Assembly (NCBI GenBank): GCA_902761365.1
Contig: CACWJZ010000009.1
Span: 44,991-108,990, forward strand
Reading direction: 5' to 3'
Length of the DNA: 64,000 bases
Origin: an uncultured Eubacteriales bacterium
Lineage (GTDB): Bacteria; Bacillota; Clostridia; Christensenellales; CAG-138
This document shows, piece by piece, positions 52,766-57,714 of the stretch (position 1 is the first letter of the stretch; every line of letters begins with the position of its first letter). The notes beneath the pieces are model-generated. The model made no database searches, had not been told where the DNA came from, and saw only the letters and a list, made by a program, of their open reading frames with translations. The translations under genes and the position numbers were made by a program.

Positions 52766-52816
52766 GATGAGGCCGTTCGCCGCAGCCAACACCGCCCAGG
52801 ATGACAAAGGCAACCA

Positions 52817-52841
52817 ACCACCGGCCAAGCCGGTGGTTTTT
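52817..52841 (+). terminator. Terminator after the YpsA-like gene
   Basis: ACCACCGGC / GCCGGTGGT-type stem with loop CAA and TTTTT after it. Confidence 0.8.
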
Positions 52842-53143
52842 CCTATGCGGTCAAAGCCTTCTGTTCCTCGCGCATGCATCAAACGTGCGAATAAAACCAC
52901 AGGTGTGTCATCCGTTCAAAGGATGCTGATCTGCTGTTGATCTCTCCCTCCGGTTCGCTTCGCTCACCACCCTTGACCTTGGGCTTCGCCCGATCTCGCT
53001 GAAAAGGCCGCCCCGTGGCCTTTTCCGGGCACTCGATCCCTTGCACAAAGGGGCTCCTGAGAGGCACGACCAAAAGCCCCCCTTTCATGAAGGGGGGGAT
53101 ATAAGGGGGGATCGTTCCACGGCCCGCAGGACAATCTCACGCA
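52842..53143. other. Non-coding gap before the RiPP locus
   Basis: No gene was found. The segment holds a hairpin AAAAGGCC / GGCCTTTT near 53000-53022 and a C-run/G-run pair near 53076-53112. No mobile element was recognised. Confidence 0.5.
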
Positions 53144-53171
53144 AAAAAAGCTCCCCAGCGGGAGCTTTTTT
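53144..53171 (-). terminator. Terminator of the RiPP operon
   Basis: AGCTCCC / GGGAGCT stem, 4-base loop, with A and T runs on the two sides, 15 bases after the last gene. Confidence 0.85.
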
Positions 53172-53185
53172 GTGGTTTCAGCGGG

Positions 53186-53446
53186 CTATTCCTCCAGGGC
53201 GCCGATCTCGCGGAGCTGGGCGAAGGCGCTCTTCACGTCCCGGCCGATGATCTCCGGCGGCGCGTCGTAGCGCTCCGCCATGGCGGCGATCAGGTCCGCC
53301 TCTGAGATCTCCTCCTCCAGCAGCGACAGCATGTCCCCCAGGACGCCGTTGCCCCGCACAAGACCGTGGAACGCCGCCGCCCCGGAGGCCACCAGCAGGG
53401 CCTCCCCGTTGTTGTCGAATGGGATAAACTTCTGATCCAGCTTCAT
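53186..53446 (-). CDS. PqqD-like RiPP recognition protein
   Basis: This 86-residue protein has the PqqD winged-helix layout: an N-terminal strand pair (FIPFDNNGEALLVAS), then GNGVLGDMLSLLEEEISEADLIAAMAERY split by a turn, and a final VKSAFAQLREIGALE helix. PqqD domains bind the leader peptide and present it to a radical SAM enzyme (established). It is the last gene of the four-gene run, 20 bases after the radical SAM gene. Separate PqqD and enzyme genes are typical for ranthipeptide, sactipeptide and related pathways. Confidence 0.82.
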   Translation of the reverse strand: MKLDQKFIPFDNNGEALLVASGAAAFHGLVRGNGVLGDMLSLLEEEISEADLIAAMAERYDAPPEIIGRDVKSAFAQLREIGALEE

Positions 53447-53466
53447 TTGCTTCTCCTTTTCTCAGT

Positions 53467-54675
53467 TCAGGGACACTCTTCCTCGGCTTCGTCCCGGGCC
53501 TGGGCCCCGCGCAGCAGCGCTTTCAGCTCTTGGACGGTCCTCATCTCCATCCTGGTCCGGCAGGCGGCCACCTTCACCGGGCAGCAGGCTTTGCAAAAGG
53601 CCATGCAGTCCGGCAGGAAGACGCAGCCCCTGCATTCCGCCGCCAGCGCGGGCTCAGCCTTGGGCAGGACCAGCGCTTCGTCGTAGATGGTGCCGAAGGG
53701 GGCCCCGCCCACGTCGTGCTCGCAGCGATGCAGGCCGCCCTTGGGATCGATGATGACGCTCCGGTCCGAATCCACCATGCAGTAGTGGGTCTTCAGCCGG
53801 GCATAGACCGGCGCGGTGTGCTCCAGGTCCAGGTCCCCGACCCGGGTCATGACCGATTCCGCCGCCCGGTACAGGGCCGCGTTCTCTTCGGCGGTGACGG
53901 ACTGGAAGAGCTGCTCCATGTAGATGCTCACGTTCCGCCGCCCTGCGAACCGGCTGCGGCACTCCGCCAGAGAATCCTGAACCCGGGGCAGGTTCTCCCC
54001 GTCGTAGTTCACCCGAAGGACCACGTTCACCCCGGCGTCGGAAAGGAGCTCCACCGCCGCCATGGCCCCGTCGTAGTTGTAGCGGGTCGGGTCCACATAC
54101 CGCTTGCGGGCCTCGTAGTCCGCCCGGCCCCCGTCCATGGACACCTGCGCCCGCCGCAGATGCCACAGGTCCACGGCCTCCCGGGCCATGTCCGCCGTCA
54201 GCAGGGTGCCGTTGGTGATGATGGCGGAGGTGTACGCCACGCCCTGGGCCTGCAGTCCCCGGCAGATGCGCGCGATGCGATCCGCCCCCAGCAGGGGCTC
54301 GCCCCCGAACCATTCTATCCGCACCGGCCCCTCCCCCTTGGTGCGGCAGATGAAGGCCGCCACGTCGTCCGCCGTCCGGGCCGTCATGGACACGGGGGTC
54401 CAGCCCTCCTCGTAGCAGTAGACGCAGCGGGCGTTGCAGCCCGTGGTGGGCAGGATGGTGTAGCTGGAAAGACCCGGCTTTCGGGGCTCCATGGTCCTAA
54501 GGATGCGGAGGATCAGGTCGTACTGGGCGGCCTCGTCATATCCCCGCTCCACCAGGAAGCGGTACCGCATAAGCTCCCGGACGCAGTCACAGGACAGGTC
54601 CGCCGCCTGCACCGAAGCCCATTCCGCCGGGGAGAGGACGTAGACCTGCCGGGTCAGGGTGTTCTTCAACAGCAC
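53467..54675 (-). CDS. Radical SAM/SPASM peptide-modifying enzyme
   Basis: This 402-residue enzyme binds three iron-sulfur clusters. The radical SAM cluster site is GCNARCVYCYEEGW (about residue 78; CxxxCxxC). IEWFGGEPLLG follows, then a C-terminal SPASM region with many Cys (CEHDVGG, CRGCVFLPDCMAFCKACCP, about 317-385). Relatives form thioether or carbon-carbon crosslinks in ribosomal peptides. The start is GTG 54675, right after the stop of the 39-residue ORF, with GGAGGGG overlapping that stop. Neighbours are a Cys-rich precursor and a PqqD protein, so a peptide-maturase role is well supported. The bond formed is unknown. Confidence 0.88.
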   Translation of the reverse strand: MLLKNTLTRQVYVLSPAEWASVQAADLSCDCVRELMRYRFLVERGYDEAAQYDLILRILRTMEPRKPGLSSYTILPTTGCNARCVYCYEEGWTPVSMTARTADDVAAFICRTKGEGPVRIEWFGGEPLLGADRIARICRGLQAQGVAYTSAIITNGTLLTADMAREAVDLWHLRRAQVSMDGGRADYEARKRYVDPTRYNYDGAMAAVELLSDAGVNVVLRVNYDGENLPRVQDSLAECRSRFAGRRNVSIYMEQLFQSVTAEENAALYRAAESVMTRVGDLDLEHTAPVYARLKTHYCMVDSDRSVIIDPKGGLHRCEHDVGGAPFGTIYDEALVLPKAEPALAAECRGCVFLPDCMAFCKACCPVKVAACRTRMEMRTVQELKALLRGAQARDEAEEECP

Positions 54676-54795
54676 CTACCCCTCCGCCTCATGGACGAAG
54701 ACGAAGCCCGAGAGCCGGCGATCCGCCTCCGGAAAGAGCTTTTTTTGCTCCACGATCTTGATGACCCGGACGTCGCCGGGAGAAAGCTGTCGCAT
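54676..54795 (-). CDS. 39-residue ORF between precursor and radical SAM gene
   Basis: A small frame starts at ATG 54795 with AGGAGG four bases before it and ends one base before the GTG of the radical SAM gene. The product (begins MRQLSPGDVRVIKIVEQ, ends GFVFVHEAEG) has no Cys, no signal and no hydrophobic helix. The good ribosome site and exact junction with the enzyme gene suggest it is translated and coupled. It could be a leader-binding helper or only a translational coupler. No family is recognised. Confidence 0.55.
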   Translation of the reverse strand: MRQLSPGDVRVIKIVEQKKLFPEADRRLSGFVFVHEAEG

Positions 54796-54874
54796 GGCGC
54801 CTCCTGACAAAATCGGCAGGCAGCCAAGGCTGTCTGCCAGTCATCAACAAGTCATTCCTTACCCTTCAAAATAA

Positions 54875-55012
54875 TTAGGGATAATAAACAGGGCATTCAG
54901 TCCATGGATCACACCCGGGGACAATGTATGAATCACACGATGCCGTGATCACATCCTCCGCCTCCAAGGCGACGACCTCCAGCTCCAGGCCCGCATACTT
55001 CTTCTTTTTCAT
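54875..55012 (-). CDS. Candidate RiPP precursor peptide with three cysteines
   Basis: This 45-residue peptide starts at ATG 55012 behind AAGGAGGG, seven bases upstream. The N-terminal half is a charged leader (MKKKKYAGLELEVVALEAED) of the type common to Clostridial radical SAM precursors, ending VITAS. The C-terminal half is a short core with Cys 26, 34 and 40, four aromatic Tyr/Trp residues and Pro near the end (CDSYIVPGCDPWTECPVYYP). It is the first gene of the locus. Maturation would be by the SPASM enzyme with the PqqD protein holding the leader. No protease or exporter gene is adjacent. Confidence 0.75.
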   Translation of the reverse strand: MKKKKYAGLELEVVALEAEDVITASCDSYIVPGCDPWTECPVYYP

Positions 55013-55135
55013 GTTTGTTCCCTCCTTCCCCGTCAAAATAGAAACGCGAAAGGACCGCCCGGCGAAGAAATCATCTCCGCCAAGCGGCCCTTTATCCAAC
55101 CTCTTTCTCTTTCCTCAGAAGGGCAGAATCATCCC

Positions 55136-55170
55136 GCCGTGCCGTGCCGTGCCGTGCCGTGCCGTGCCGT
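55136..55170. repeat. Seven tandem copies of GCCGT
   Basis: A perfect 35-base pentanucleotide repeat lies in the leader of the RiPP operon, 124 bases before the precursor start and three bases downstream of a possible -10 box. Such repeats can change copy number by slippage. Confidence 0.95.
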
Positions 55171-55173
55171 CTA

Positions 55174-55249
55174 AGCGTAGCCCATGCGGAACATGCTGTC
55201 AACCCCCTTTCGTACACAATAGTATAGCATGGTATTTGGCCCCGCGCAA
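55174..55249 (-). promoter_or_regulatory. Two possible promoters of the RiPP operon
   Basis: P1: TTGCGC (55244-55249), 17 bases, TATACT (55221-55226). P2: TTGACA (55197-55202), 17 bases, TACGCT (55174-55179). P2 would start transcription inside the GCCGT repeat. A P1 transcript would carry a 7-codon frame (MFRMGYA, 55171-55194) with an AAGGGGG site, ending at the repeat. Confidence 0.6.
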
Positions 55250-55322
55250 GGAAAAAAACCAGGAAAGCGCCGCCGCCCCGCACGAATCCTCTCTTTGTTG
55301 CCGTGGCAATATAAACAGAAGA

Positions 55323-55346
55323 GCCGGAACGGCGTTTCGTTCCGGC
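55323..55346 (-). terminator. Terminator after the sortase gene
   Basis: Perfect 9-base stem GCCGGAACG / CGTTCCGGC, 6-base loop, then TCTTCTGTTT on the minus strand. It insulates the RiPP promoters. Confidence 0.75.
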
Positions 55347-55354
55347 GCATGCGT

Positions 55355-56290
55355 TCAGTCGTCCACTCGCTTGGCGATGAGCACGAATCGACCTTCCCTG
55401 GTGTAATGATAGCAGGTGGAAAGCACCAGCAGATCATCGCCGAAGGACGTTTCAACACCGGTGTCATACAGGGAAAGCTTCCTTGCCTGCCGCATGAACT
55501 CCTTATAATCCGTCTCGCTATCCAGCGAGGTGTAATTATAATATCGAAAACCATCCCGCTCGTCCCGGTCGAGAACACGGGCCCGTATGGCCATGACCAC
55601 CGCATAGGTCCGCTCCTCGTACAACGTGTCGAAGCGGAATGTGGGATGCGTCTCCCAAAAGGCCTGATCCTCGAAGTTCACCAGATCGAAGAACATGGTC
55701 CCGTCGTTCATCCGGTGTCCGTAGACCATATAGAAGTTGCCATTGGGGTCGCAGTCCGAATCCAGGAACGGCACGCCGGCATAGGAGAATTTCCCGTAGA
55801 AGTCGTGCCCCAGGTACTGCAACGGCTGCTTGGCGTTGTACATCACCGGATAATCGATGTTCGTATCCGGGATCGTTATCCAGCCAAAGAAATCATGGTT
55901 CAGCTCATACAGGGGCAAATACTGCTGCAGGGGCGTCGGTTCGGTGGGCCCCTCCGTCGGCGCTTCCGTCGGCTCCGGGGTGGCCGGTTCCTCCGTCGGC
56001 TTGGCGGGCGGCGTCTTGGGCGCCGGTTCCGGCTCCGTGTCCTCATTGGTCCCGATCACGATGGAGATCGGCGTGGGCTCCGGCGACACCGTGGCGGTGG
56101 GCGTGGCCGTCTTCCGGACGGTCGGATCCGGCTGGGGGGCGCGCAGGGCCGCCAGCTCCGCAAAGGTCTGCGCCTCCTGCTTGGTCTGCCGCATCTCGCG
56201 GGTGAACATGATCGCGGAAAAAATAAAAACGATCGCAAACACGGACGCCACAATCAGGAATAGCTTGTTTCTTTTTTTCTTCGTTTTCAT
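55355..56290 (-). CDS. Class B sortase
   Basis: This 311-residue membrane transpeptidase has an N-terminal helix (LFLIVASVFAIVFIFSAIMF) and a long Pro/Thr/Glu spacer (about 50-120). The sortase fold shows WITIPDTNIDYPVM, the catalytic His in MVYGHRM and the catalytic Cys in LSTCYHYTREGRFVLIAKRV with the essential Arg. It belongs to class B-like sortases, which anchor few substrates. No LPXTG-type substrate was found in the window. The start ATG 56290 is chosen before KTKKKRNK; an upstream GTG at 56347 is possible, and neither has a strong ribosome site. Confidence 0.88.
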   Translation of the reverse strand: MKTKKKRNKLFLIVASVFAIVFIFSAIMFTREMRQTKQEAQTFAELAALRAPQPDPTVRKTATPTATVSPEPTPISIVIGTNEDTEPEPAPKTPPAKPTEEPATPEPTEAPTEGPTEPTPLQQYLPLYELNHDFFGWITIPDTNIDYPVMYNAKQPLQYLGHDFYGKFSYAGVPFLDSDCDPNGNFYMVYGHRMNDGTMFFDLVNFEDQAFWETHPTFRFDTLYEERTYAVVMAIRARVLDRDERDGFRYYNYTSLDSETDYKEFMRQARKLSLYDTGVETSFGDDLLVLSTCYHYTREGRFVLIAKRVDD

Positions 56291-56423
56291 CGTCTTGAGC
56301 AGCAGGTGGCTCCCTTTCCTGTCCGAGTCCTTCCGGCGCTGCCGCACCGGAAGCAGAGTTCAAATCACAAAAGCGGTTTGCTGGGCTTCTGTGCACGCGA
56401 TGCCCATACACCCAGTATGATTG

Positions 56424-56453
56424 ATTATAGCATAGCATGCTGCAAAAAGTCCA
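56424..56453 (-). promoter_or_regulatory. Possible sortase promoter
   Basis: TGGACT (56448-56453), 18 bases, TATAAT (56424-56429) on the minus strand. The -35 match is weak. Confidence 0.4.
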
Positions 56454-56513
56454 GAAGCAGTTATCCCTTGTTTTCCCGCCAGTTCCTGCCTCCTGCCCGC
56501 CGCCAACGAGAAA

Positions 56514-56539
56514 AGCACGGATCTTTCTCGATCCGTGCT
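56514..56539 (-). terminator. Terminator after the L,D-transpeptidase gene
   Basis: Perfect 10-base stem AGCACGGATC / GATCCGTGCT, 6-base loop, TTTTCTCG after it on the minus strand. Confidence 0.8.
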
Positions 56540-56593
56540 TCCCATACGTTGCAACATCTCGATCCGGTAGCGCCCCGGCTTTGTCCGCTCGGA

Positions 56594-57604
56594 TCAGCTT
56601 TTGGGCACCGGCGGCGGGGTGGCGTTGACGAATTCCACCTCCAGAGGCACGTCCTCGATGGTCCAGTTGTCCGTATAGGGGCTGTTCCCCGGGACCAGGC
56701 CCGAGACCACTTTGGGCGGCGGAGCGAGCTTGAGCTGCTCCCGGATGGCCTTGGTCTTGGCGTCGTTCTTGCTGCCCTCCCGGATCTCCACCTCCGTGCC
56801 GTAGGCGCAGTTATACCAGATCCAACGGGCGTCGGGCACGGGCAGCCGGATGCAGCCGTGGCTGTCCTTGGAACCCAGCTTCAGATATTTATCCACATAA
56901 AGGCTGTTCAGGTCCTTTTTGCCTCCCTTGCCGCCCCGATAGACTACGGAGTGGAAATAGGTCCGGGACACGATCAGCGTCCAATACTGAGCCGAATAGT
57001 CGCCCCCGGCGAAAGTGCCGAACCGGAGTCGACACTCCTTCAGCTTGAAGGTGCCGATGCGGGTGTTGCCCAGCTTGGGGCTGCCGGTGGAACAGAGCAT
57101 GTACCGGACGGGGACGGTGTATTCCCCGTTGGCGTCCTTCTTGAAGGCCATGACCACCTGCCAGTAGATGTCCACGATCAGCTTGTAGGTGCCGGGAGCG
57201 GGATAGCCCTTGGGCCAGATGGGCTCGGTCTTGTTCATCTCGTAGTAGGTGTCCTCCAGCCCCCCCACCAGCTCCTCGAAGGTCATGTTCACCGTGGGCG
57301 CATAGTAGGAGAAGGGGATGGGCGACGCCGTGGGCGTGGCCGTGGGGACCGCCGTGGGGCCGGGCGTGGGACTGGGCGGGGGCGTCATGGTAGGGACCGG
57401 CGTCCGGGCCGCCACGACCAGCGCCTGCTGAGCCGGCTCCTGGGTGGGGGCCAAGGTCAGCGGGACCAGGGTGGGTTCCGCCACCACCCGGGTCACCTGC
57501 TCCACCGGCGCATCTATAGCTTGGGCCGTCTGCTTCGAACCGCATCCCCCCGCACAGAGGAGGAGCAGCGCCAGCAGGACGACGCTCCAACGAATCCTGT
57601 TCAC
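56594..57604 (-). CDS. L,D-transpeptidase (YkuD) lipoprotein
   Basis: This 336-residue wall crosslinking enzyme starts at GTG 57604 behind AAAGGA. The signal and lipobox are VVLLALLLLCAGGCGS (Cys near 20), followed by a Thr/Pro spacer rich in TPVPTMTPPPSPTP. The YkuD domain (about 150-280) carries the catalytic motif GSKDSHGCIRLPVPDA with His and Cys. These enzymes make 3-3 crosslinks or attach proteins to peptidoglycan. Two conserved YMLCSTG and FHSVVY strands support the family. It is the third wall enzyme in this part of the window. Confidence 0.88.
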   Translation of the reverse strand: MNRIRWSVVLLALLLLCAGGCGSKQTAQAIDAPVEQVTRVVAEPTLVPLTLAPTQEPAQQALVVAARTPVPTMTPPPSPTPGPTAVPTATPTASPIPFSYYAPTVNMTFEELVGGLEDTYYEMNKTEPIWPKGYPAPGTYKLIVDIYWQVVMAFKKDANGEYTVPVRYMLCSTGSPKLGNTRIGTFKLKECRLRFGTFAGGDYSAQYWTLIVSRTYFHSVVYRGGKGGKKDLNSLYVDKYLKLGSKDSHGCIRLPVPDARWIWYNCAYGTEVEIREGSKNDAKTKAIREQLKLAPPPKVVSGLVPGNSPYTDNWTIEDVPLEVEFVNATPPPVPKS

Positions 57605-57714
57605 CGCGTATCGTGTCCTTTGGTCAAAAATCGTGGGTATTGTACCATGACAGATAATCGCCCACAAGCCAAAATCTGTCAATTTCCTGCAAAATAACTA
57701 TGAACGACGACCGG

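Follow-up and report, generated by a model that had tools for sequence, protein, structure and literature searches.

The window, that is, the whole stretch of 64,000 nt analysed here, probably harbors a mobile cassette of an unnamed radical SAM/SPASM RiPP family, and this copy has most likely been recently disabled or mis-assembled. On the minus strand, reading from position 55012 to 53186, a single run of genes encodes a precursor, a radical SAM protein and a PqqD protein. The precursor gene (54875–55012), recognized by its own reading frame and by a leader HMM, specifies 45 aa with cysteines at positions 26, 34, and 40. In the radical SAM enzyme, the N-terminal 39 codons (54679–54795) are separated by an in-frame TAG (54676–54678) from the remaining 402 codons (53467–54675), which start with a GTG right after the TAG, include a CxxxCxxC motif and match Pfam family Radical_SAM (PF04055) with an E-value of 2.6e-16. 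The last gene (53186–53446) encodes a PqqD-family protein of 86 aa, a candidate discrete RRE, whose match to PF05402 (E-value 7.1e-8) scores 33.1 bits, above the gathering score of 23.4. Reading frames and Pfam matches agree with a preliminary description of this DNA, which had placed a three-cysteine precursor, a CxxxCxxC enzyme and a PqqD protein in one run. Its proposal of a RiPP maturation locus is likewise supported, both by the maturase profiles matched by the enzyme (see below) and by the occurrence of a leader-bearing small gene upstream of 27 of the 37 family enzymes surveyed. The direct neighbors of the run are a class B sortase-like gene upstream and a YspA-family gene downstream. 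An Rfam scan of positions 53000–55500 returned three matches, all far under their gathering scores, which we treated as chance.

The precursor and the 39-aa N-terminal piece matched no Pfam or NCBIfam family at an E-value of 1. However, a leader HMM built from the leaders of ten relatives, with the window's own excluded, retrieved the window precursor with an E-value of 1e-11, versus 4.5 for the runner-up among 1210 stop-to-stop peptides of the window; the precursor is therefore not a chance match. The family survey started from 39 rows of enzyme matches, corresponding to 37 distinct enzymes, that of the window included, after removal of two truncated duplicates from contig G051:C4; it omits a weak partial match (L003), the duplicate loci L022, L037, and L053, and four rows of a search of 103 genomes that lacked a locus. 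With a leader model whose 11 seed leaders included that of the window, the 27 enzymes with a leader-type peptide upstream left ten with none detected, whereas a PqqD gene was found beside 28 enzymes and was missing as a neighbor from nine; 22 enzymes had both elements and four had neither. Small precursors with conserved leaders and hypervariable cores thus adjoin the enzymes, and orthologs devoid of an adjoining short gene, which would have spoken against the preliminary description, are not the pattern found.

The number of cysteines in the last 40 residues is zero in 3 of 35 precursors and one to five in the remainder, so that thioether crosslinks cannot be assumed. The sequences of the relatives argue against cysteine thioether crosslinks as a family rule; for the core from the window, with its three cysteines, crosslinking is plausible. 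At an E-value of 1e-60, 25 of the 103 genomes from this bacterial family contain enzymes that belong to the RiPP family or are close to it. The window genome itself contains two further enzyme matches, one on contig C31, with 30% identity and its own precursor, and a partial one on C12; in agreement with this, a precursor profile detected two precursors in the genome at an E-value of 0.01, those of the window and of C31. Beside the second RiPP enzyme of this genome there is a 1625-residue protein with InlB-type B repeats (L035, 7646–12523). Among the relatives, contig G051:C4 (L034) contains four tandem family enzymes interspersed with several similar precursors, no PqqD gene being detected next to these enzymes. 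In locus L021 (2411–5664), a pair of tandem maturases sharing 72% identity is preceded by a single precursor and followed by a single PqqD gene. The source bacterium has relatives from the rumen.

PqqD copies 55–65% identical to that of the window are found directly downstream of the enzyme in three relatives (L021, L024, and L025), and a comparison of the window protein with PDB sequences yielded no match at an E-value of 1. The commonest form of the leader is YxxP/L followed by DVITxS; in the window precursor, the corresponding YAGL (YxxL; 54986–54997, minus strand) is a candidate binding site for the PqqD protein, from the alignment of leaders and its likeness to the motif W/Y/LxxP/L/I. We propose that the PqqD protein would bind the conserved leader (YxxL...DVITAS) and so deliver the hypervariable core for modification by the radical SAM enzyme. 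Leader removal and export would occur in trans, probably by means of a module found elsewhere in the genome.

This candidate module is on contig C4. In genome G010, a sister cassette adjoins genes for an HprK-like protein, a signal-peptidase-like protein and an ABC exporter, and contig C4 of the window genome contains a matching module, with identities of 74, 54, and 86%, respectively; the labels HprK-like and peptidase-like derive from matches below cut-off. Contig C4 keeps the module and the other flank, while the cassette is missing at the junction, which spans about 145 bp vs. 2.1 kb. We infer that the C4 module could serve the peptide from the window. The earlier remark that no protease or exporter lies next to the cassette holds for the direct neighbors seen, but elsewhere in the genome this module is a candidate for both functions.

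The cassette is located, together with the sortase-like gene, within a 3.8-kb insert (52766–56593) and is absent from this site in the seven congeners examined, out of eleven other genomes of the genus that have the flanking gene (56594–57682). By inspection, this flanking gene is L,D-transpeptidase-like, and the YspA-family gene lies on the other side of the insert. In six of the seven congeners the flanking matches are 36–308 bp apart, and the seventh (G003) has about 3.9 kb of other genes at the site, one of them response-regulator-like by eye. The sortase-like gene scores 39.9 bits against Pfam Sortase, above the cut-off, and 135.7 bits against TIGR03064, under its cut-off of 153.75; its GC content is 0.583, vs. 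0.651 for the cassette. From these comparisons the cassette is apparently mobile, and the intergenic site looks like an insertion hotspot. The inserts at window positions 52766–56593 and at positions 2336–6216 of L119 are different, and occupy one intergenic site in different congeners.

The reading frame of the maturase is not continuous in the window. The 39-residue ORF ends at the TAG, which is followed immediately, and in frame, by the GTG listed as the enzyme's start. In contrast, five relatives with 50–57% identity (L004, L005, L015, and two in L021) each carry a single open frame (447–460 codons), none with a stop at that position. The 39-residue ORF can be aligned to the first 39 residues of these relatives and is therefore the N-terminus of the enzyme. 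The enzyme gene of the window shows no second stop and no frameshift. Downstream of the stop, the window retains 124–135 of the 143–160 columns that are invariant in four intact relatives (84–88%), versus 137 of 143–160 (86–96%) for every intact relative when compared in turn with the four others; upstream, the window keeps 11–12 of 13–15 invariant columns (79–86%) vs. 13 for the intact relatives (87–100%). Conservation of the window enzyme is thus at the low end of the intact range or slightly below it, as judged from these alignments, which fits mild decay, and the sequence past the stop looks to be under constraint. The TAG may thus be recent, tolerated, or an error. In a low-confidence structure model of an intact relative (mean pLDDT 52, or 56 for the N-terminal domain alone), three strands lead into helices in this domain, and the break is placed in the turn that joins strand 32–37 to strand 40–45. 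The interruption would then lie inside a predicted RRE-like N-terminal domain; the top three Foldseek matches of this domain were all TbiB1, a lasso leader-binding protein, with non-significant E-values of 0.1–0.2 (best 0.099), and there were none at 0.001.

The reading that we favor is that the TAG, at codon 40, cuts the enzyme and that this copy has been recently disabled or mis-assembled. It overlaps with the possibility that the TAG is a sequencing or assembly error and that the living strain has an uninterrupted enzyme, which we consider possible, if somewhat doubtful. The TAG may be an error because the genome is a draft in 116 contigs and 69% complete, and only a single codon is affected, with no frameshift seen; on the other hand, there is no direct sign of an error.

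The main alternative, although unlikely in our estimation, is a functional split enzyme in which translation would stop at the TAG and restart at the GTG, producing a shortened maturase of 402 residues; the 39-residue piece would be lost or would reassociate, and leader binding would fall to the PqqD protein. Consistent with this, the GTG adjoins the TAG, and its upstream sequence is predicted to pair with the 16S tail with −10.0 kcal/mol, within the range of the precursor (−12.8), the enzyme start (−10.3), and the PqqD gene (−8.9); the apparent constraint after the TAG also agrees with it. Moreover, L018 contains (1339–1521) a second family enzyme with a stop in the N-terminal part, a TAA at codon 61, beyond which 298 codons are open to the end of the stretch. 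However, L018 has no start codon directly after its TAA, the GTG of the window ranks only fourth (tied) by 16S-tail pairing among 33 internal start-like codons, and the split would separate two strands of a predicted sheet. Internal stops are also rare among enzyme matches (1 of 19 rows in one search and 0 of 34 in the search of 103 genomes), being counted only within the matched stretch, and the row of the window itself begins past its TAG.

A small gene in its own right, as in the preliminary description, is a very improbable reading of the 39-residue ORF: it does have a good ribosome-binding site, with the −10.3 kcal/mol given above, but in each of the five close relatives examined its counterpart is the beginning of the enzyme. 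Reading through or recoding of the TAG, for instance as pyrrolysine, is barely conceivable, for although the frame is open on both sides, TAG acts here as an ordinary stop codon: it closes the adjacent PqqD gene just where its relatives end, and likewise 5 of the 35 window ORFs of 200 aa or more that passed a composition filter (a rough filter, which may include wrong-strand ORFs).

Upstream of the precursor, all on the minus strand, we found a promoter-like TTGCGC-N17-TATACT (55221–55249), by inspection, and a TTGACA-N17-TACGCT module (55174–55202) directly before a perfect tandem tract, (ACGGC)7 (55136–55170, detected with TRF), a 20-base stretch of which occurs nowhere else in the draft genome. 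Between this tract and the precursor, folding revealed a 20-bp hairpin (55049–55093) that is a candidate attenuator, lacking a clean T-run; the region 55028–55110 folds at −41.2 kcal/mol (z −5.1), with none of 200 shuffled sequences being as stable. After the PqqD gene there is, by inspection, a terminator-like hairpin with a T-run (53143–53171, minus strand). A simple promoter scan of positions 53050–55360 reported none (0.3 expected), and a terminator scan of the same region reported five terminator-like sites (1.9 expected, SD 1.7), neither hairpin among them; these promoter and hairpin features therefore rest on inspection, folding, and similarity between loci. As to the clear terminators initially described on either side of the run, the scan gave terminator-like sites on the minus strand at 55346–55323 and 53097–53077, but the hairpin after the PqqD gene went unreported by the scan.

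Three loci of the same genus (L009, L010, and L018) have a module similar to TTGACA-N17-TACGCT and then (GGCA)21, (GGCA)10, and (GGCA)3, respectively, with a strong hairpin followed by a T-run (z −4.8 for L010 and −3.6 for L018; the value of 0.5 for L009 is from a stretch that missed its hairpin). A 20-base GGCA tract is present in 2 of 12 genomes of the genus, only at these loci, and a pattern for the promoter module, which demanded one base absent from the version in the window, matched 3 of 103 genomes, at the three known loci. We also considered that the repeat number could set the frame of a leader ORF, since ATG-started ORFs enter the repeat in L009, L010, and L018; the idea was not adopted because the one in the window stops before the repeat.

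Mosaic RiPP operons were seen in three genomes: L018/L033 (G010:C96), L010/L030 (G002:C104), and L029 (G009:C44). The operons L010, from G002, and L018, from G010, are nearly identical except for the number of repeats, the core, the TAA at codon 61, a mid-enzyme block (about 240 bp, 63 mismatches), and dispersed single changes. The block from L018 is close to that of a third species, G009 (0–7 mismatches per 60), but its core is not, and the donor of the core was therefore not found. These comparisons are subject to the assembly of repeats and to contamination of the draft genomes (4% in G010).

Compared with the window locus, the variable control region and the mosaics offer a more unusual and bolder lead. 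It is conceivable, though rather unlikely, that they reflect a phase-variable, reassorting RiPP system, in which a hypermutable tract between promoter and attenuating hairpin would switch the operon, with (ACGGC)7 and (GGCA)3, 10, and 21 as states, and recombination would swap the core together with the mid-enzyme block. The stops in the N-terminal part of the enzyme (TAG in the window, TAA in L018) could then be part of an on/off pattern, or be tolerated, leader binding being taken care of by the PqqD protein. Searching open-licence papers, short of a full survey, we found none naming the family or a repeat-controlled radical SAM RiPP.

The seven best NCBIfam profiles for the window enzyme are peptide maturases, all matched far under their cut-offs, and at least the seven best are also peptide maturases, likewise below cut-off, for two intact relatives. 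Among the best 25 profiles listed for these three enzymes no named family reaches its cut-off, which would leave room for a non-peptide SPASM family; nevertheless, this is a highly unlikely assignment given the peptide maturase profiles and the leader-bearing small genes upstream, and by its best profiles the enzyme does not group with such families, an outcome that would have undermined the preliminary description. A phmmer search of PDB sequences with one intact relative gave nothing at 1e-5, and an alignment profile gave eight matches at 1e-3. The best was an unnamed radical SAM protein (8vpo, 7.6e-8), and the others included viperins, 5wgg/5why (1.2e-5; the title of 5why refers to sactipeptide thioether formation) and SkfB (6efn, 3.5e-5).

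With the window, the unnamed radical SAM/SPASM-PqqD RiPP family, which lacks a named profile among those tested, gains one more member. The broader pattern outweighs this single locus: scattered cassettes, a module without its cassette, repeat tracts before the operon, and natural mosaics, nearly identical except for the core and a block of the enzyme, both of which differ. If the link between core and enzyme block is causal, these mosaics would constitute a natural experiment on which part of the enzyme chooses the core.

Regarding known systems, the best profile matches, covering most of the length of the enzyme, are TIGR04463 (rSAM_vs_C_rich) and TIGR04280 (geopeptide maturase). The window enzyme scores 98.1 and 99.7 bits, respectively, and together with its relatives 98–128 bits, vs. 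cut-offs of 525 and 400, so that they are not members of either. The HprK-like protein of the export module is nearest to ScmC from the SynChlorMet system (7.4e-7 for L101, 1.1e-4 for L024, and 1.6e-5 for L028), but at most with 28.8 bits vs. a cut-off of 125, which is short of membership. In SynChlorMet, too, a PqqD protein accompanies the radical SAM enzymes. The sactipeptide and ranthipeptide maturases (5wgg/5why, SkfB 6efn, PapB) share with the window family the radical SAM domain and further C-terminal SPASM-type cysteines, often cysteines in the core and, going by the low-confidence model, perhaps an RRE-like N-terminal domain; conversely, the window system has a discrete PqqD gene as well and zero to five precursor cysteines in the last 40 residues, and its enzyme is far under the cut-offs of these families. 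The SCIFF-type ranthipeptides, with six cysteines in forty-five residues in the excerpt consulted of PMC7470986, also differ from the window precursor, with three in 45, and from the 35 precursors compared. The layout of the cassette is a known one, since discretely encoded RREs beside radical SAM enzymes are already described in that excerpt. A recognition sequence W/Y/LxxP/L/I is given, in an excerpt of PMC12710340, for RRE groups including PqqD, FusE, and StsC; by manual count it fits 7 of 12 aligned leaders of the family, while five depart from it (e.g., YEGM, FKGF, and YEKA). With their PF05402 domain and YxxP/L leaders, the cassettes appear nonetheless, at the sequence level, alike to those with discrete PqqD-type RREs (PqqD, FusE, StsC) beside radical SAM enzymes.
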